DNA of 64,000 bases from Stigmatella ashevillena (lineage in GTDB: Bacteria > Myxococcota > Myxococcia > Myxococcales > Myxococcaceae). Shown here in pieces: positions 56,514 through 64,000 of the stretch. Location: the NCBI RefSeq assembly GCF_028368975.1, contig NZ_JAQNDM010000002.1, forward strand, positions 9,604,425-9,668,424, given 5' to 3'. A program made the translations under genes and the position numbers. The stretch's first letter is position 1, and each line of letters starts with the position of its first letter. Under the pieces are notes generated by a model. That model was given only the letters and a program-made list of their open reading frames with translations, was not told the DNA's origin and did not search any database.

Positions 56514-57296
56514 TCAGAGGAGCCCTCGCCATTCGGGCTCGAGCGTGCTTCCCGCGAGGAACACTTCCGCGTGGCCCGGCTGGCCATGCGCCTCCGCTTC
56601 CAGTTGGTGGAAGGACTCCAGAAGGGGGGCCACGGCCTCTTCCCCTCCGAACTGGAAGGGGAGCTGGCTGCGGTAGCACACACACCCGGCGACCTTGCGG
56701 GGCAGTTCGGCCGTCACGTTCACGGCCAGGGGCCGCAGGCCGTCGGGAAGGGACAGATCCGGCTTCGCACTGGGCTGCCGCACGGCGTAGGGGGTGTCGC
56801 GGTACCAGAGGACCTGGGACACCTGAACGTTCAGGGAGGGCAACACCCGGACCAACTGCACGTGATCCACGTGACTGCCCAGGGCTTGGGGGGCGAGCAC
56901 CAGGTCCGGGCGCACTTCGTCGATCAACAGGGAGAGCTTCTCCTCCAGCGTGGGGATGATGTCGTCGTCCCTGCGCGGTGGGGCGAAGAGGGCGCCTGGG
57001 CTGTGGTAGCCCCGGTGAGGGGCTTCCGGTAAGTCCATCCACACGAGCTGATCCACGCCCATCCATGCCGCGAAGGAGCGGTCCTCCGCCCGGCGCAGCG
57101 CCATGTAGTCCACGTCCGGACCCAGGCCCTTGTCTGTCTGACACGCCAGGGCGAAGCCCGTGGGATGGGCCACCGAGCGGGTGAACACGGTGGCCAGGAC
57201 GATCCTCCACCGCCGCGCCTTCAACCGGGCCAGCATCCCGCCGCAGGAGAAGGCGACGTCGTCCAGGTGGGGAGACAGGAAGAGGGCGGTCTTCAT
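56514..57296 (-). CDS. PIG-L family N-acetylglucosaminyl deacetylase-like protein
   Basis: This 260-residue protein has the LmbE/PIG-L zinc motif PHLDD (His10, Asp12, Asp13) and the third ligand in GSHVDH. PIG-L enzymes remove acetyl from N-acetylglucosamine in glycosylphosphatidylinositol, in mycothiol (MshB) and in antibiotic precursors. Here the next gene upstream encodes a GT4 glycosyltransferase and its start overlaps (57293-57296, ATGA), so deacetylation of its product is plausible. This is the last of seven coupled genes. The frame is open further upstream, but 57296 places the ATG right before the first strand. Confidence 0.85.
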   Translation of the reverse strand: MKTALFLSPHLDDVAFSCGGMLARLKARRWRIVLATVFTRSVAHPTGFALACQTDKGLGPDVDYMALRRAEDRSFAAWMGVDQLVWMDLPEAPHRGYHSPGALFAPPRRDDDIIPTLEEKLSLLIDEVRPDLVLAPQALGSHVDHVQLVRVLPSLNVQVSQVLWYRDTPYAVRQPSAKPDLSLPDGLRPLAVNVTAELPRKVAGCVCYRSQLPFQFGGEEAVAPLLESFHQLEAEAHGQPGHAEVFLAGSTLEPEWRGLL

Positions 57297-58579
57297 AGCA
57301 GGTGGGGCGCGCTCCGGAAGCGGCAGGAGAGGTCCGCCGTGGACTCGGTGGTGGCGGGGTCGTAGACATTCGTCCAGCGCGTGTCTGGCTGGGTGCCCAG
57401 GAGGTCCGCGTAGACCTGTTGGATCTGCCGGCCCACCGCTTGCCACGAGTACAGCGCTCGCGCCTCAGCCAGGGCGGTGCGGGCCAGGCGGCGCCGCAAG
57501 ACCGCATCGTCCAGCACGCGGGCGATGGCGTCGGCCAGCGCCCCTGCGTCCCGGGGGGGCACGAGCAGGCCGTTGCGCCCATCTTCCAGGCAGTCCAGCA
57601 CCCCCACCGCCTGGGTGGAGACGATGGGAAGCCCGGTCGCCATGGCCTCGAGGATGGTGTTGGAGAAGCCCTCCGCGTAGGTCGGCGAGACGAAGAGGTC
57701 CCCTTGCCGGTACAGCCCAGGCGCATCTTCGTACGCGGAGTACCCGGTGAGCTCCACGCTGCCCCGCAGGCCCTCGTTCGCCACCCGGGCCTTCACGGCG
57801 TCCACATCCGGACCAATGCCGGAGACGAGGAGCTTCAGCCGGCGCCCATCCCGCACCACCAGTTGCTTCACGGCGTCCAGCAGCTCCATCACGCCTTTCC
57901 GCGCATCCACGCGGCCGTGGTAGAGCAGGACGGGTGGATCCCTCAGCGCTCCGGGGGCCTGGCCCTCGCGAGGGTGGAAGCGGCGGGTGTCCGTGGCGCC
58001 GGGAACGAAGGTGAAGCGCTCCAGCGGGGTGCCGTGGTGGCCCTGGACTTCCTCGGCGAAGCTCCGGCTGCCGATCAGCAGCGCCCCGGAGTGGCCCAGC
58101 ACCGCCAGCATGGCCTGCTTGTGGGTGCCGCAGCAGGTGCCCACCCAGTGTCCGTCTCCTCCCTGGATTGACACGGCATTGGGCAGCCCCAGCCGTCGGC
58201 TCGCCTCCAGGGCCGCCAGGCCGCACGGGTAGCCGTACTGCGCGTGGATGAGATCAAAAGGGCGCTCGCGGTGTTCCCGCTCCACGGTGGCGACCATGTC
58301 CTCGACATCTTGCTCGAAGCTGGCCGGCAGGCCGTCGTTGATCCGTTGCTCGCCCTGGGACTCGCGTCCCAGCACCCGGGCGCCTGGAATGCCGGGGGGC
58401 GGTCCCCCGCCGTAGACCGAGGCCCCCGCGGCGTCGTTGCGGTACTGGCTGACCATCGTCACGTCGTGGCCGCACGCCACCAGCTCTTTCACCAGGTTGA
58501 GGGCATAGACGCTCATGCCCGAGATGGCCGGGAAGAAGCGCCGGGAGATGAAGCAGATGCGCAGGGCGTTCTGGCTCAT
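57293..58579 (-). CDS. GT4 family glycosyltransferase
   Basis: This 428-residue retaining glycosyltransferase has the GT-B fold: N-terminal RICFISRRFFPAISGMSVYAL, acceptor-side QYGYPCG and GDGHWVGTCCG, donor-side LYHGRVDARKGVMELLDAV and the nucleotide-sugar block YAEGFSNTILEAMATGLP. It is the general kind to which MshA (GlcNAc-inositol-phosphate synthase) belongs, but specificity cannot be read from sequence. It is coupled by ATGA overlaps to the TIM-barrel and PIG-L genes. Confidence 0.85.
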   Translation of the reverse strand: MSQNALRICFISRRFFPAISGMSVYALNLVKELVACGHDVTMVSQYRNDAAGASVYGGGPPPGIPGARVLGRESQGEQRINDGLPASFEQDVEDMVATVEREHRERPFDLIHAQYGYPCGLAALEASRRLGLPNAVSIQGGDGHWVGTCCGTHKQAMLAVLGHSGALLIGSRSFAEEVQGHHGTPLERFTFVPGATDTRRFHPREGQAPGALRDPPVLLYHGRVDARKGVMELLDAVKQLVVRDGRRLKLLVSGIGPDVDAVKARVANEGLRGSVELTGYSAYEDAPGLYRQGDLFVSPTYAEGFSNTILEAMATGLPIVSTQAVGVLDCLEDGRNGLLVPPRDAGALADAIARVLDDAVLRRRLARTALAEARALYSWQAVGRQIQQVYADLLGTQPDTRWTNVYDPATTESTADLSCRFRSAPHLL

Positions 58580-59445
58580 GCCGCCACCCCTGCGTCCGAG
58601 GGAAGCCGGGCCCGGAGCCATTCGAGCGCGGTGGGAATCATGGTGTGCGCCCGGTGCGCGTCCCGGGAGAGCTCGATGCAGACGAGCCGGTCGTAGCGCG
58701 CCTGGAGGAGTTCCCGGAGCACCGAGACGATGTCCATGTCCCCTTCGCCGAAGGGCAGGTGTTCGTGCACCCCTCGCTTCATGTCCTCCAGGGCCACCGT
58801 GCCGAGCACCGGGGCGAACTCACGCACGGCGTCCGCGGGGTCGCGCTCCTGGGTCACCATGAGGTGTCCGACGTCCAGGGCCAGCTTGAAGGGGGCCGCC
58901 CCCAGGAGCTTCACCTCTTCCTGGAGGTGGTGCCAGGCATCCACCGTCTCCACCAGCATGCCGGGCTCGGGCTCCATCGCGAGCACCACGCCCCTCGAGG
59001 CGGCATGGTCCGACAAGCGGGCCACGCCGTCCACCAGCCAGCGCCAGGCGTCCTTCAGCGCCACCTCGCCCCGCCGTGGCACGCCCGCCCAGAAGGAGAC
59101 CGCCTCGCCCCGGCAGGTGGCGCAGATGTCCACCGCCCGGCACAGGAAATCGAGCCTGTGCGCCCGGCCCGCCGCCTCGGGGCTGATCAGCGTGGGCTCA
59201 TGCTTGGCCCGTGGGTTGAGCAGGAAGCGCGCCCCTGTCTCCACCACCAGTCCGAGCCCGAGATGCTCCAGCAACCCCGCCAGCATCTCCGAGCGGCGGA
59301 TCAAGTTGGGCGCGAAGGGATCGAAGTGGTGGTGATCCAACGTGAGGGCAACGCCGTCGTAGCCACTGTCGGCGATGAGCCGCAGGGCGTCTCCGAGGCG
59401 ATGGTTGGCGGCTCCGTTGGTGTTGTACGCAAAGCGCAACGTCAT
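58576..59445 (-). CDS. sugar phosphate isomerase/epimerase-like TIM barrel
   Basis: This 289-residue xylose-isomerase-like TIM-barrel protein has the metal-site blocks: VLAMEPEPGML (Glu), LALDVGHLM (Asp, His), VALEDMKRG and LVCIELSRDAHRAH (Glu). Relatives include inosose dehydratase/isomerase IolE and IolI, and hydroxypyruvate isomerase. In an operon with inositol-phosphate synthase, a ketose or inosose substrate is reasonable, but this is inference. It overlaps both the YcaO gene and the GT4 gene by four bases. Confidence 0.82.
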   Translation of the reverse strand: MTLRFAYNTNGAANHRLGDALRLIADSGYDGVALTLDHHHFDPFAPNLIRRSEMLAGLLEHLGLGLVVETGARFLLNPRAKHEPTLISPEAAGRAHRLDFLCRAVDICATCRGEAVSFWAGVPRRGEVALKDAWRWLVDGVARLSDHAASRGVVLAMEPEPGMLVETVDAWHHLQEEVKLLGAAPFKLALDVGHLMVTQERDPADAVREFAPVLGTVALEDMKRGVHEHLPFGEGDMDIVSVLRELLQARYDRLVCIELSRDAHRAHTMIPTALEWLRARLPSDAGVAA

Positions 59446-60929
59446 GACCGGCCTCCTCCAAAACGGCGGGTGCGAAGCACTGTCTGCACGCTGTGACGCC
59501 CCGGTTCTCGGTAGAGCGCATAGAGCGAGCCCAGCCGTTGCTCGGCCAGCCGGACGTTGAACCAGGCCGGGCCCCCCAGCCGTTCCTCGGCCGCCGCCGT
59601 CAGCCGCACGGGCAGGGCGCCCTCGGGGGGAGCCCCCAGGCCGGCCAGGGGATCCTGGCGCGCCAGCAGGCGAGACAGGTTCCGTTCTCCGAGCCGGGAG
59701 TAGGTCATCGTCTCCACTTCGAGCCCTGGAACGAGGGTCTTCACCACGTGAATGGAGTGGTCCGCGGGGGACAGGTCGATGACCAGGATGTCGAAGCCGG
59801 TCAGCAGGAGCCCATCCACCACTTGGGCACAGCGCTCCGCGGGGGCCTCGGCGGCCTCCACCTGGGGCAGGTCCGCGAAGCGGACTGTGCTGCGGCACTG
59901 GAGGGTCGGCGCGATCAGCTCACGCAAGGTCCCCACGGGCATGCTGGCCCACTCGACCATGCCCTGGAGCGCCCGGGCTTCCTCCTGGCGGAGGTCCACC
60001 TGCGGCAGGAACCGCTCCAGATAACCCGGAGGGGCGACCCGGGCCACGGCCTCCAGGGGGCCATGCATGAAGGCCTTGCGCGCCCGCGAGCCGGCATATT
60101 CCAGCAGGGCCTTGCGCAGGGCTCGGTTCCGGTCCGGATCGGTGGCCTCCCCACAGGCGGTCATCATCAGCGGCTGATCACCGGGGGACGGATCGTTGCC
60201 CACCACGTACAGGTTGACGAGGCCGAACTGCGTGCTGGCCAGCTTGGCAATGATCTCGATGCCCGCGCGGCGGTAGCGCTCCAGCAACTCCTGAACATCG
60301 GGGGGAAGGTGGGCCCCTTCGAGATCCAGGACAACGCCTCGATCCATGGCCCGGAACTGCAAGCCGTTGCCGTCCCGCTGTTGCAGCTCCAGCAGGGCGT
60401 GGGCCAGGGCCTGAGGCTGGCTCAGGCCGGCTCCCTGGCCGTTGGTGATGGGCAGGATGAGCGGGGAGCGCCCGCGCAGCTGGCCCGGGTGGATGACGAC
60501 GAACTCCTCGGGCACCAGGACGGGCTCCCCGGTGGCCAACCGCTTCATCTCGAGCCAGGTCAGCGGCTGGTCCGGCTGGTAGGGGCTGCCCGCGGGCAGC
60601 CCCAGCGTCAGGGGATCCGCCACGCCCCGGAGGCCCCGGAGGCGGACCATCTCCTGATAGCTGCCGTGAAAGCGCGGCTGGACCGCCAGGGTCTTCTCGG
60701 CGAAGACCTCCTCGGCGAGCTCGCCGATGGCGCTGACCATCGCCTCCTCCTCGGTGGCCCCGTAGCCATGGGAGGTGATCCACGGTCCTTTCTCCATTCG
60801 CAGGCTGGAGGCCACCACGGGCACTCCGAGCCGGTCGATGCCGTCGTCCCGGAACAGCAGCAGCTCTCCGGCGGGCATGGCGCGCGCATACGCCTCCCGC
60901 GCCTCCGACAGGTCTGGCAACTCCTTCAT
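59442..60929 (-). CDS. YcaO family ATP-dependent enzyme
   Basis: This 495-residue protein has a YcaO-type domain. The ATP/Mg blocks are visible: AMVSAIGELAEEV (Glu70, Glu73-74), ALLELQQRD (Glu181, Gln184, Arg185, Asp186) and DPDRNRALRKALLEY (Glu277). YcaO proteins use ATP to activate amide carbonyls, making azolines, thioamides or amidines in RiPPs. A few act outside RiPPs. No precursor peptide or E1-like partner was seen here. The C-terminal 150 residues (after about 345) are unfamiliar. It is coupled by ATGA overlaps to the zinc-ribbon MBL protein before it and the TIM barrel after it. Confidence 0.85.
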   Translation of the reverse strand: MKELPDLSEAREAYARAMPAGELLLFRDDGIDRLGVPVVASSLRMEKGPWITSHGYGATEEEAMVSAIGELAEEVFAEKTLAVQPRFHGSYQEMVRLRGLRGVADPLTLGLPAGSPYQPDQPLTWLEMKRLATGEPVLVPEEFVVIHPGQLRGRSPLILPITNGQGAGLSQPQALAHALLELQQRDGNGLQFRAMDRGVVLDLEGAHLPPDVQELLERYRRAGIEIIAKLASTQFGLVNLYVVGNDPSPGDQPLMMTACGEATDPDRNRALRKALLEYAGSRARKAFMHGPLEAVARVAPPGYLERFLPQVDLRQEEARALQGMVEWASMPVGTLRELIAPTLQCRSTVRFADLPQVEAAEAPAERCAQVVDGLLLTGFDILVIDLSPADHSIHVVKTLVPGLEVETMTYSRLGERNLSRLLARQDPLAGLGAPPEGALPVRLTAAAEERLGGPAWFNVRLAEQRLGSLYALYREPGRHSVQTVLRTRRFGGGRS

Positions 60930-61759
60930 GACAGTTCCTCCATGGGCACGGGCTTCGTGTGGGGCATTCCCGCGAGCAGTCGGTCGAACAAGGCCAGCGC
61001 GTGTGCGCGGGTGACTCCCCGGGCGAACTCGAATGGGGTGAAGACGTTCTCGAACGGCAGCGCCTCGAATACCTGGCGGTAATGGCGCAGCTCCCCATGG
61101 CTCATGGGGATGGCGTAGTGAAAACCCTTGTGGCACGAGAGCCCCGTGGGCTTGCCTTGGGCGTTCAGCTCCACCTTGAGGGCATCTCCGCAGAAGAGCG
61201 AGCGCGTGTGCGCGTCGTACATCACGCACTGGCCTTCGTAGTGGCCACCCACGTGGTGCAGCGTCAACCCCGGCGCCACCTCGTGCACCCCGTCCATGGG
61301 CCAGCGCACCCGGAAGGCCTTGGTGTAGGGGAGCGCGTCGCGGTGGAGCACCAGCAGGGGATCGAACCGCTCCTGGAGCTGCCACAGCGCCCCGAACCCA
61401 TGGGGGTGCGAGGCGGACAGCACCCGGAGGCCCCCGAGCGAGGCCATGTGCTCCAGCGCCCCCCTCGAGTACCAAGGGGCCCCCTCGAAGGCGACGTTGC
61501 CGTCGGGCCGCCGGAGCAGCCAGCCCGTAGATCCCAGGCCGAAGGCCGGTGTGCAGTGAAAGCCCAGGATGTCTGGAAGTGCCTCGTACCAGGAGGTCGT
61601 GAGCATCTCGCTCACCTGAGAGGCGGAGCGGAAGTTCCAACCGTTCTCGGGCAGCGCGTTGCGCACGTCCATGCAGGTGGGACAGCCCGGTGGGTGCTCG
61701 TGCGAGAACCAGGGCTGCCACCAACCACAGTGGGAGCAGGCGTAGCGGATCAGCGGCAT
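60926..61759 (-). CDS. zinc-ribbon plus metallo-beta-lactamase-fold protein
   Basis: This 277-residue protein starts with a rubredoxin-like knuckle (CSHCGWW, 8 and 11; GCPTC, 26 and 29). The rest has the MBL fold order: GSTGWLLRRPDGNVAFEG, ASHPHGFGALW, HHVGGHYEGQ and FCGDALKV. The usual H-x-H-x-D-H is H-P-H-G-F-G (118-123), so the second metal site has lost its Asp and His. His173, Asp192 and His210 or 214 remain. It is thus perhaps a one-metal enzyme or a binding protein. It overlaps YcaO by four and the oxidoreductase by ten bases. Confidence 0.8.
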   Translation of the reverse strand: MPLIRYACSHCGWWQPWFSHEHPPGCPTCMDVRNALPENGWNFRSASQVSEMLTTSWYEALPDILGFHCTPAFGLGSTGWLLRRPDGNVAFEGAPWYSRGALEHMASLGGLRVLSASHPHGFGALWQLQERFDPLLVLHRDALPYTKAFRVRWPMDGVHEVAPGLTLHHVGGHYEGQCVMYDAHTRSLFCGDALKVELNAQGKPTGLSCHKGFHYAIPMSHGELRHYRQVFEALPFENVFTPFEFARGVTRAHALALFDRLLAGMPHTKPVPMEELS

Positions 61760-62775
61760 GACGTCTCGGCCGGGGACGGAGGGGTGGCTTGGGTCAGCAG
61801 GCGCAGCAGGCGGATGTCCCGGTCCGGGGAGAATGGCTGGGGACGGCCCTCCAGGACACAGGCCGAGAACGCCTGGATCTGGTGGAGGAACGGGCACCGA
61901 TCCTCGGAGGGGGAGAGGGGGACGGGGCGCTCCTCTCCGGTCACCGCGTCCGTCAGGGTCAGCGTGCCCCCGGGGGTCTGCCCCATGCTCTTGTAGGCCA
62001 GGGCGCGGGCCTTGGTGCCAATCAGCTCCAGGGTCCGCCGGGGGTAGGCGTCCGGGCAGTTGTAGCCCACCTGGAGGATCCCCAGGATGCCGCTGCGGAA
62101 CTGGCCGATGAGCACCGCGCCATCGTCCACCGGGTAGTCATGGACGCGCCGCTGCAACAGGGCGGTGAGCGAGGCCCACTCGTCCTGCAGCAGAACCTCC
62201 AGCAGATCGAGCCCGTGCGGGGCCAGATCGATCATCGCGCCGCCGCCAGCCTGGCGGGGGTCGACCCGCCAGTTGTGCGGCGCCCAGTCACGCGGGAGCC
62301 AGCACGCATAATGGATGCGCGCCTGGGTGATGGTGCCCAGGAGGCCCTCCTGCACGAGGGTGCGCAGCCGCCGGTGAATGCCATGGTGGCGCTGATCGAA
62401 GGCGGTGGCGTAGTGAACGCCTGCCCGCTGGCAGGCCTCCACCATGCGCGTGCCCTCCTCGGGCGTGATGGCCATGGGCTTCTCGCACAGCACGTGCTTG
62501 CCCGCGGCCGCGCACGCCTCCGTCATGGCGGGGTGCAGGTGGTTGGGCGTCGCGATGTAGACCGCATCCACGTGGGGATTGGCCAGGGCTTCGGCCAGCG
62601 CCGTGTACCGCAGCGCATCGTTGCCGGAGATGCGCATCAGCATCTCCGCATCCGAGTCGCACAGGGCCACCAGGCGCGCGTTGTCCGCGGCCTGGATTGC
62701 GGGCGCGACGTAGTCCCGGGCCACCCACCCACAGCCCACGATGGCCCAGCCGAGTCTGCGCGAGGGGGAGGACAT
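61750..62775 (-). CDS. Gfo/Idh/MocA family oxidoreductase
   Basis: This 341-residue NAD(P)-dependent sugar or inositol dehydrogenase-like protein has the Rossmann loop AIVGCGWVARDY and LCEKPMAIT (conserved Lys of the family in EKP), then the C-terminal substrate domain with GGGAMIDLAPHGLDLLEVLL (His and Asp of the catalytic pocket). Members oxidise sugars or inositols at a ring hydroxyl. Located three bases after the inositol-phosphate synthase gene, so an inositol-type substrate is a reasonable guess. Substrate not determined. Confidence 0.88.
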   Translation of the reverse strand: MSSPSRRLGWAIVGCGWVARDYVAPAIQAADNARLVALCDSDAEMLMRISGNDALRYTALAEALANPHVDAVYIATPNHLHPAMTEACAAAGKHVLCEKPMAITPEEGTRMVEACQRAGVHYATAFDQRHHGIHRRLRTLVQEGLLGTITQARIHYACWLPRDWAPHNWRVDPRQAGGGAMIDLAPHGLDLLEVLLQDEWASLTALLQRRVHDYPVDDGAVLIGQFRSGILGILQVGYNCPDAYPRRTLELIGTKARALAYKSMGQTPGGTLTLTDAVTGEERPVPLSPSEDRCPFLHQIQAFSACVLEGRPQPFSPDRDIRLLRLLTQATPPSPAETSCR

Positions 62776-62778
62776 GGT

Positions 62779-64000
62779 TCAGCCCCGGATGCGCTCTTTG
62801 CCGAGGACGGGCCGCACGCCTCCTTCGGACAGCCAACTCATGAGGCGGCGCTGCTGCTCCGCCATGGCGTGCTCCACCTTCCCCCCGTTCTGCGTCATGG
62901 GGGCCTTGAAGAAGCAGCCCAGCGCGTCGATGACACCGGCCTCGCCGCGGCGCTTGGCCAGGTCCAGCGTGCGCGCCAGCTCCACCACGAGCGGGGCCGC
63001 CAGGATGGAGTCCTTGCAGAGGAAGTTGAGCTTGAGCTGCATGGGCTGGCCCAGGAAGCCCACGACGTCGATGTTGTCCCAGGCCTCCTTGTTGTCTCCG
63101 CGGGGCCGGTAGTACTGGATCTGGACGATGTGGTCCTGGACCTTGTAGCCGAGGATGCTGTCCAGCGCGGCGCCCTTGGTGTCGATCTTGTTGGCCTTCG
63201 AGGCCGGATCATTGAGGGCTTCACCATCCCGGTTGCCCAGGATGTTGGTGGAGTACCACCCCTCGACGTGCAGCGCGCGGTCCCTCAAGGCCGGAGCGAT
63301 CACCGTCTTGAGCATCGTCTGGCCTGTCTTGCCGTCCTTGCCTGCCAGGGGCGAGCCGTTGCGCTGCGCCAACTGCAGCAACGCCGGGACGTCGGCGGAG
63401 ATGCTCGGCGTGAAGTTGGCGAACGGTGTTCCCTCGGAGATGGCCGCGTAGGCGTAGAGCATCGCCGGGCCGATGTCCGGATCATCCGCGTCGAGGGCCG
63501 CCTCGAAGGCCTCGGGCGTGAGGAACTTGGGCAGCGTCAGATCCACGGCGCGCTCGGTCGAGGCCAGGTTGATGACCACCACCCGGTTGACCCCCTGCTT
63601 CTGGCGGAAGCGCGCCAGATCCTCGCGGATGGCCTGCACCTGCTCGCGCAGGCTGTGTGCCTTCTTGTTGGAGGTGCCCACCACGTTCTTGCAGAAGCGC
63701 GTGTTGGACACGGCGCTCCAGGGCCGCATCTTGCTCAGCACGGGCGCCACGGCCTCGAGCTGGCTGTCGGTCAACACCGCGTGGTTGCGCGCGGCCTGCG
63801 CCAGATCATCCTCGAACAGATCCCAACCGCCAAAGGTCAGGGCCTCGTAGTCGATCAGGCCCAGGCCCCGTGCGGCCGCCAAGGGCAGACCCTTGGTGTC
63901 CACTCTGCCTCTGCGCAGGAGTTCCAGGCCCGCGACCGCCGTCGTTGCTACTGCTCCACCCAAGCCCACAATCGCAACACCCAAGCGCTCGTTATTCGCC
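62779..64000 (-). CDS. ino1: myo-inositol-1-phosphate synthase (5' end beyond the window)
   Basis: The enzyme turns glucose 6-phosphate into inositol 1-phosphate with NAD. The open frame runs off the window edge (the codons before the TTG at 63984 are still open), so the true start lies outside. Visible blocks are VAIVGLGGAVATTAVAGLEL, VINLASTERAVD, SEGTPFANFTPSISADVPAL, GSPLAGKDGKTGQTMLKTVI, WYSTNILGNRDGEAL and DSILGYKVQDHIVQI. They match the class well. It leads the coupled seven-gene operon that ends with PIG-L. Confidence 0.93.
   Translation of the reverse strand, partial: ANNERLGVAIVGLGGAVATTAVAGLELLRRGRVDTKGLPLAAARGLGLIDYEALTFGGWDLFEDDLAQAARNHAVLTDSQLEAVAPVLSKMRPWSAVSNTRFCKNVVGTSNKKAHSLREQVQAIREDLARFRQKQGVNRVVVINLASTERAVDLTLPKFLTPEAFEAALDADDPDIGPAMLYAYAAISEGTPFANFTPSISADVPALLQLAQRNGSPLAGKDGKTGQTMLKTVIAPALRDRALHVEGWYSTNILGNRDGEALNDPASKANKIDTKGAALDSILGYKVQDHIVQIQYYRPRGDNKEAWDNIDVVGFLGQPMQLKLNFLCKDSILAAPLVVELARTLDLAKRRGEAGVIDALGCFFKAPMTQNGGKVEHAMAEQQRRLMSWLSEGGVRPVLGKERIRG

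Follow-up and report, generated by a model that had tools for sequence, protein, structure and literature searches.

A YcaO-containing operon of Stigmatella ashevillena is the larger part of a widely shared nine-gene cassette encoding inositol and amino-sugar enzyme families

What does a YcaO protein do in the company of sugar enzymes? The question is raised by one end of a 64,000-nucleotide stretch of the 10.95 Mb genome of Stigmatella ashevillena (here called the window; RefSeq assembly GCF_028368975.1, contig NZ_JAQNDM010000002.1, positions 9,604,425 to 9,668,424), where seven minus-strand genes lie head to tail. They encode, in order, a cassette-type inositol-phosphate synthase (ino1), a Gfo/Idh/MocA-type oxidoreductase (gfo), a zinc-ribbon protein of metallo-beta-lactamase (MBL) fold (mbl), a YcaO protein (ycaO), a xylose-isomerase-like TIM barrel (tim), a GT4 glycosyltransferase (gt4) and a PIG-L/LmbE-type deacetylase (pigL). 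Our analysis shows that the pathway to which they belong is old and widely shared, and that the seven are its larger part. The full set of nine genes almost certainly forms a single pathway, which probably serves to make one small molecule that combines inositol with an N-acetyl amino sugar and on which YcaO acts. We class this pathway as new only provisionally, on the strength of failed membership tests for known systems and of a search of open-licence literature in which the gene set is not described, as the sequence-only reading of this DNA had supposed.

That reading had described seven coupled genes, and all are present where it placed them; Pfam supports their families, the MBL protein scoring slightly below its cut-off (22.0 against 22.7 bits, with one orthologue above it at 28.6). 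Six of the seven overlap a neighbour by 4–10 bases, as it had proposed: the junctions measure −10 nt for gfo/mbl and −4 nt each for mbl/ycaO, ycaO/tim, tim/gt4 and gt4/pigL. The exception is ino1, separated from gfo by the predicted 3 nt; its start codon occupies positions 64000–64002, so that the gene extends 2 bases beyond the window end. Both this coupled arrangement and the conservation of the block across phyla bear out the view that the genes are a unit.

When genome contigs were scanned with the YcaO alignment, 27 loci came back. With the later samples included, the cassette occurs in 27 genomes outside Myxococcota, distributed over Alphaproteobacteria, Actinobacteria, Rubrobacteria and Bacteroidota. 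All nine genes are present in 22 of these genomes in a single order (ino1, an HD-domain protein, a methyltransferase, Gfo/Idh, MBL, YcaO, TIM barrel, GT4, PIG-L), which is conserved in five lineages. In the other five, ycaO and tim are swapped (L112, L113), the methyltransferase is missing (L111 and L151, the latter also cut) or the locus is cut by a contig end (L080). Two of the 22 carry interrupted genes, ycaO in L147 and both gfo and pigL in L149. Among the loci of the contig scan, the complete set is found in Skermanella aerolata, Modestobacter excelsi, a Geodermatophilaceae bacterium and Parvularcula maris, and likewise in Neolewinella maritima, a Lewinella and two metagenome-assembled genomes (MAGs), one of Saprospiraceae and one of Leeuwenhoekiella; in Modestobacter altitudinis, where the contig is cut, five cassette genes are visible. 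Mean identity between lineages is 34–64% depending on the gene, highest for ino1, the TIM barrel and GT4, and the pairwise distances of the nine cassette proteins correlate between genes (r 0.45–0.92). The cassette ino1 is the sole ino1 at E 1e-20 in seven of eight non-myxobacterial cassette genomes.

Within each large group the cassette is rare, in phylum and class samples that were small. The MBL alignment (E 1e-30, centre genomes included) matched 6 of 289 genomes of the Skermanella class, 3 of 345 of the Lewinella phylum and 6 of 296 of the Modestobacter class; among these, four further actinobacterial genomes and one further Bacteroidota genome carry the cassette and the remaining matches do not. 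The YcaO alignment (E 1e-60) matched 8 of 276 genomes in the order of Sphingomonas jatrophae, seven of them with the cassette, and 9 of 39 in the class of a Rubrobacteraceae MAG, six of them with it. An MBL relative in G485 (47% identical) has no cassette around it, nor have six weak relatives (E 5e-31 to 2e-36), two of which lie beside weak GT4 or PIG-L matches. A second, distant family of similar MBL proteins (~25–32%) also exists outside the cassette (G077:C32:91331, G076:C1:8932912, G097:C90:6882 and L116–L121).

Closer to the window, within its order, 31 of the 145 genomes searched carry YcaO (E 1e-20), all 31 from the window's own family. Strong MBL matches (at least 75% identity; 26 of 195 genomes of the phylum) and cassette-type ino1 (at least 76%; 25 of the 145 genomes plus a fragment in G068) were confined to these 31, which confirms the co-occurrence that the sequence-only reading had suggested looking for. 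An ino1 of the other type (about 40–49%, with two fragments at 54–55%) is widespread, any ino1 being present in 101 of the 145 genomes; the window's own genome has one at a distance from the operon (G000:C2:5010805-5012025), 48% identical to the cassette ino1. Gene order was kept in the intact loci among 20 family regions compared. Five YcaO genomes have only weak MBL relatives or remnants (G062, G073, G074, G075, G097), and since genes are missing or fragmentary in the regions of the last four, decay of the cassette has occurred. Decayed cassettes (L044/L068, L055, L056, L057, L076) were seen in Pyxidicoccus fallax, in G073–G075 of one genus and in Corallococcus llansteffanensis. That ino1 or YcaO might stand apart from the other genes in related strains had been named as a finding that would speak against the operon as a unit: within the family this is limited to these decayed copies and an extra YcaO at a second locus, whereas in other phyla related YcaO proteins do occur without ino1, in sugar-import loci.

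The window operon is incomplete relative to its relatives because the HD protein and the methyltransferase are missing from it. Most inspected relatives outside the window's genus have the HD-domain protein (~310 residues) between ino1 and gfo, and some also have the methyltransferase there (~340–410 residues). Both are encoded in the same genome at a second locus, together with a second YcaO 71% identical to that of the window (G000:C2, about 606.6–610.2 kb; L038 8608-12243). G078, of the same genus, has a locus arranged in the same way (L045), and a second YcaO of about 70% identity occurs also in G077 and G079. Two or three tandem ycaO genes lie inside the operon of some relatives (G064, G068, G072, G076; loci L051, L054, L069, L070), where division of labour or heterodimers are possible. 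The C-terminal end of the methyltransferase is also conserved, resembling LLDLPERW (L052, L053, L038).

The YcaO protein itself (59442..60929, minus strand) scores above curated family cut-offs (PF02624, 184.7 against 25.7 bits; TIGR00702, 82.9 against 75.65) and keeps E70, E73, E181 and E277. It belongs to a subfamily in which the second glutamate of the canonical LExxERD ATP/Mg helix is replaced by glutamine (LELxQRDGN). This residue, Q184, is invariant in 15 aligned members and present in 51 of 54 sequences, the three exceptions coming from a locus in decay (L057), a fragment of a broken gene (L147) and an incorrect reading frame (L148). ERD is retained in the solved proteins MJ1094, to which the window YcaO is related, 6ci7 and LynD. 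Four other YcaO loci lie in the same genome (L001, L002, L003, L006), three with ERD and the fourth unmatched by the pattern.

Apart from the second locus, members of this YcaO subfamily that stand outside the cassette are found in carbohydrate-import loci (L092, L085, L148, L132; L082, L086). The non-cassette locus of Sphingomonas jatrophae encodes a solute-binding protein, two permeases, a polysaccharide deacetylase, a TonB receptor, a MalK-type ATPase and YcaO. A Sphingomonadaceae MAG has YcaO with a DeoR-like gene, followed on the opposite strand by a PfkB kinase, an SIS protein, a MalK-type ATPase and GatZ and, farther away, a deacetylase and a permease piece. Rubrobacteraceae and G1425 loci combine an aldo/keto reductase, a solute-binding protein, two permeases, YcaO and a polysaccharide deacetylase. 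A CE4-type or polysaccharide deacetylase is present in five of five import-type loci examined, L086 and L132 among the import-type loci being cut by contig ends with no full transporter visible and the L086 deacetylase lying ~9 kb off. Cassette-type GT4 gave no match in five import-type loci, and the MBL alignment none in three import-type genomes at E 1e-5, the same alignment matching in the class and phylum samples.

In a YcaO tree (omitting the broken-gene L147 and leaving L152 outside its Rubrobacteria set), the Sphingomonadales import-type proteins group with Sphingomonadales cassettes (support 1.0) and the Rubrobacteria import-type proteins join local cassettes and L111. Because the import-type proteins group with local cassettes and are not a single clade, there were apparently two recruitments of YcaO between the cassette and the import setting, in either direction. 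Double recruitment, and the presence of a deacetylase in the one setting as in the other, point to a YcaO substrate of the N-acetyl amino-sugar type. We infer that the import-locus context favours an amino sugar over a peptide, and rate this as the strongest evidence on the role of YcaO. The fuller proposal is tentative and in our estimate falls just short of evenly balanced: this YcaO subfamily would work in carbohydrate chemistry, activating with ATP the amide of an inositol-linked amino sugar to give the first amidine, azoline or thioamide glycoside made by a YcaO enzyme; the cassette would make it in several phyla, and Sphingomonadales and Rubrobacteria would have recruited YcaO into import loci to use it or break it. 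The import-locus bacteria are possible consumers of the cassette product.

The remaining proteins suggest how such a compound could be assembled. Ino1 (62779..64000 in the window, to 64002 in full, minus strand; PF07994 and PF01658) would make inositol phosphate, from which the HD phosphohydrolase-like protein may take off the phosphate. GT4 (57293..58579, minus strand; best of the GT4 Pfam families 124.9 bits, cut-off 27), in which E303, E311, R223 and K228 are invariant in nine aligned sequences, would transfer N-acetylhexosamine from a uridine diphosphate sugar. PIG-L (56514..57296, minus strand) would then strip the acetyl group: family membership is supported by PF02585 (62.5 against 28.2 bits) and by the zinc-motif residues H10, D12, D13, H142, D144 and H145, invariant in six aligned sequences, from which deacetylation of N-acetylglucosamine is predicted; among solved structures it is closest to 6iiy, labelled simply 'deacetylase', and to glycopeptide pseudoaglycone deacetylases. 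The core of ino1, GT4 and PIG-L fits the glucosaminyl-inositol scaffold that had been read from the sequence.

Ring chemistry could be supplied by two proteins, which may oxidise and isomerise a ring carbon. Gfo/Idh (61750..62775, minus strand; PF01408 and PF22725) has 1,5-anhydrofructose reductase and glucose-fructose oxidoreductase as nearest solved relatives, and its E98-K99-P100, D183 and H187 are invariant in nine aligned orthologues. The TIM barrel (58576..59445, minus strand; PF01261, 122.6 bits, cut-off 31.1) is of the sugar isomerase/epimerase type, is 50–66% identical to seven orthologues of other lineages, and has MJ1311, IolE, UlaE and, weakly, IolI as its nearest solved relatives. 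The methyltransferase would methylate. YcaO with ATP might activate an amide on the amino-sugar scaffold for attack by an amine, a hydroxyl or sulfide, giving an amidine, an azoline or a thioamide; the YcaO relatives in import loci would have this amino-sugar compound, or one akin to it, as their substrate after its uptake by other bacteria. The MBL protein may be a hydrolase or a metal-dependent partner of YcaO. Encoded at 60926..61759 (minus strand) and recognized by conserved residues and model fold, it combines a zinc ribbon (C8, C11, C26, C29) with an MBL fold (H118, H120, H173, D192), these residues being invariant in 15 aligned sequences. Its AlphaFold2 model (predicted local distance difference test, pLDDT, 92.1) matches 2p97 (Z 20.1, root-mean-square deviation (rmsd) 2.5, 195 residues aligned). 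Families and their conservation are what we observed, and the step order, substrates and product given here are read from them. For the HD protein, modelled from Skermanella (pLDDT 90.4), residues 118–298 match HDDC2 (4dmb, Z 13.6, rmsd 3.1, 169 aligned), YfbR (Z 12.1) and OxsA (Z 8.9), and it lies below the Pfam HD_3 cut-off (19.0 against 22.5). A MIOX-type oxygenase was considered for this protein and set aside: the fold matches listed are nucleotide phosphohydrolases or similar proteins and do not include MIOX, although this does not prove it absent.

Several observations weigh against this pathway. It is built from genes, its substrate and product being deduced. The usual H..HD..D metal motif of the HD protein has its HD dyad replaced by HH in 14 of 14 aligned members, its model has no Foldseek match at E ≤0.001 (best 0.27), and a Z near 13 is borderline for a helical protein; phosphatase activity is therefore uncertain. 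In place of HxHxDH, the MBL protein has HxHG(F/Y)G in all 15 aligned sequences, so that two usual ligands are missing. L111, L151 and many Corallococcus have an operon that lacks the methyltransferase. GT4 resembles MshA no more closely than it does BshA or Tll1590, its MshA match spanning profile positions 155–391 only. The cassette ino1 was not recovered in a tree as a clade separate from other ino1, and we therefore claim for it only sequence distance and co-occurrence. In the YcaO tree the subfamily is separated from the outgroup at 0.77, and the Rubrobacteria grouping, supported at 0.99, falls to 0.05 without L111; import-type loci could also reflect another YcaO role. Finally, the YcaO enzymes described in the part of PMC13063428 that we draw on act on peptides or proteins, and the same part notes many homologues outside clusters for ribosomally synthesised and post-translationally modified peptides (RiPPs), without precursors, and proposes structured proteins as further substrates.

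These last points favour the rival that survives best, in which YcaO modifies one of the pathway's own proteins or peptides; the likeliest target is the invariant tail at the GT4 C-terminus, which would be a gene-encoded substrate or carrier. The tail, CRFRSAPHLL in the window (codons with stop, 57293..57325, minus strand), is preceded by a linker whose sequence varies. Every one of 42 cassette GT4 proteins ends in HLL and has a cysteine exactly ten residues from the end; CRFR is present in 39 of the 42 and PHLL in 39, mostly as CRFRxxPHLL (30 + 12 sequences, leaving out an unrelated second GT4 of L093 and the GT4 of further Myxococcaceae loci). In 30 sequences the final 12 columns have a conservation of 0.84, compared with a protein mean of 0.74. 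In borosins a C-terminal core has this role of gene-encoded substrate or carrier. However, the five import-type loci of the same YcaO subfamily have no match to cassette-type GT4, and invariance would also be expected of a tail that closes over the active site or binds a partner; the tail may do either, or may be a YcaO target. We regard the rival as unlikely, although it is the one to be taken most seriously.

A conventional RiPP cluster with its own precursor gene is made less likely by a comparison of 5304 short open reading frames (ORFs) from 46 loci, which found no recurrent ORF in the flanks: three flank ORFs match another lineage and the most recurrent links two lineages only, with eight queries giving BLAST warnings and with a fast-diverging peptide, or one encoded elsewhere in the genome, able to escape. 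The cassette shares with azoline, amidine and thioamide RiPP clusters a YcaO-family protein with most ATP-site residues, but is surrounded by sugar enzymes and carries LELxQRDGN instead of LExxERD, and its YcaO scores below the SagD-type cyclodehydratase cut-off (113.9 against 219.25). Protein-thioamidating YcaO enzymes, for E. coli uL16 and methanogen McrA, resemble it in having no nearby precursor gene in the systems that PMC13063428 covers in the part cited, but the cassette YcaO is embedded among sugar enzymes and falls short of the McrA-type model (TIGR03266, 104.1 against 365).

A second rival would make the product a low-molecular-weight thiol or thiol-like redox buffer, as mycothiol is, YcaO and MBL then standing in for the cysteine ligase. 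The core of Ino1, GT4 and PIG-L is indeed common to both, and judging from the figure legend of PMC9736012 that sets out the mycothiol steps (MshA, MshA2, MshB, MshC, MshD), inositol phosphate, a glycosyltransferase, a phosphatase-like step and a PIG-L-type deacetylase are shared; the cassette differs in adding HD, methyltransferase, Gfo/Idh, TIM, MBL and YcaO proteins. Yet the window GT4 reaches 82.9 against the MshA equivalog cut-off of 462.5 (TIGR03449), and ino1 39 against 638 for the mycothiol INO1 equivalog (TIGR03450). MshC is above its curated cut-off in only two of 12 cassette genomes (G196 and G197, which have it besides the cassette) and in one of 14 control genomes, and is below it in the window's own genome. 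Decayed cassettes in four relatives (L044, L055, L056, L057) suggest, moreover, a dispensable product. Bacillithiol (BshA, BshB, BshC) likewise has GT4 and a PIG-L deacetylase in common with the cassette, but the scores fall short of BshA (72.8 against 273.7 bits) and BshB1 (27.1 against 182.5, a weak PIG-L match), and the presence of a dedicated ino1 indicates inositol rather than malate. The curated cut-offs and the scarcity of MshC rule out membership of either pathway. The likeness to mycothiol drawn by the sequence-only reading stands only as an analogy; a thiol made by other means appears improbable.

Less probable still is a glycosylphosphatidylinositol-like or other inositol glycolipid of the cell envelope. 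Synthesis of glucosaminyl-phosphatidylinositol also has a GT4 and a PIG-L enzyme acting on an inositol compound, but the Pfam matches of the nine genes include no phosphatidyltransferase, acyltransferase or other lipid enzyme, and GT4 reaches 56.4 where the N-acetylglucosaminyl phosphatidylglycerol synthase model requires 480. Chance adjacency is excluded because the gene block recurs in 27 genomes outside Myxococcota and is conserved across phyla.

A dedicated inositol and amino-sugar pathway also invites comparison with kasugamycin, in which inositol is joined to an amino sugar and a glycine imine group is present, and whose cluster has an aminotransferase, a pyridoxal phosphate (PLP) dehydratase and a glycine oxidase, with no deacetylase found and no YcaO mentioned in the part of PMC8869731 consulted. 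The nine-gene cassette, in contrast, has no PLP enzyme, and none of its genes encodes by Pfam the PLP aminotransferase that marks aminocyclitol antibiotics with an aminated cyclitol; among the flanks that were scanned, that of Modestobacter excelsi has an Aminotran_5 gene upstream of the cassette.

A MATE-family transporter gene lies upstream of ino1 in the window's genome, in the same direction across a 215 nt gap, and may export the product of the Myxococcaceae operon. MATE matches recur beside ino1 in Myxococcaceae loci only, and no exporter conserved across phyla was found; an MFS gene is near the cassette in Skermanella and one sphingomonad. Among the loci listed, the only flanking gene conserved over phyla is an NAD-dependent epimerase common to Geodermatophilaceae and one Bacteroidota genome. 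Six Sphingomonadales cassettes (L141–L146) have in common a gene of 254–273 residues upstream of ino1, two of which were scanned and are Crp/Fnr-type regulators. DNA-repair genes (Fpg-type glycosylase, Ku) adjoin the cassette in one genome of Rubrobacteria and one of a sphingomonad (L153 5467-6273, L144 13653-14504).

If YcaO does act on an inositol-linked amino sugar, the family would be extended to small molecules from the peptides and proteins that are its substrates in the cited part of PMC13063428. Non-peptide substrates would become directly testable with nine defined genes, and the invariant GT4 tail could be tested independently. The cassette also points to a hitherto undescribed metabolite in myxobacteria, Geodermatophilaceae, Rubrobacteria, Sphingomonadales and marine Bacteroidota, whose role could be that of an antibiotic, a protectant or a signal.

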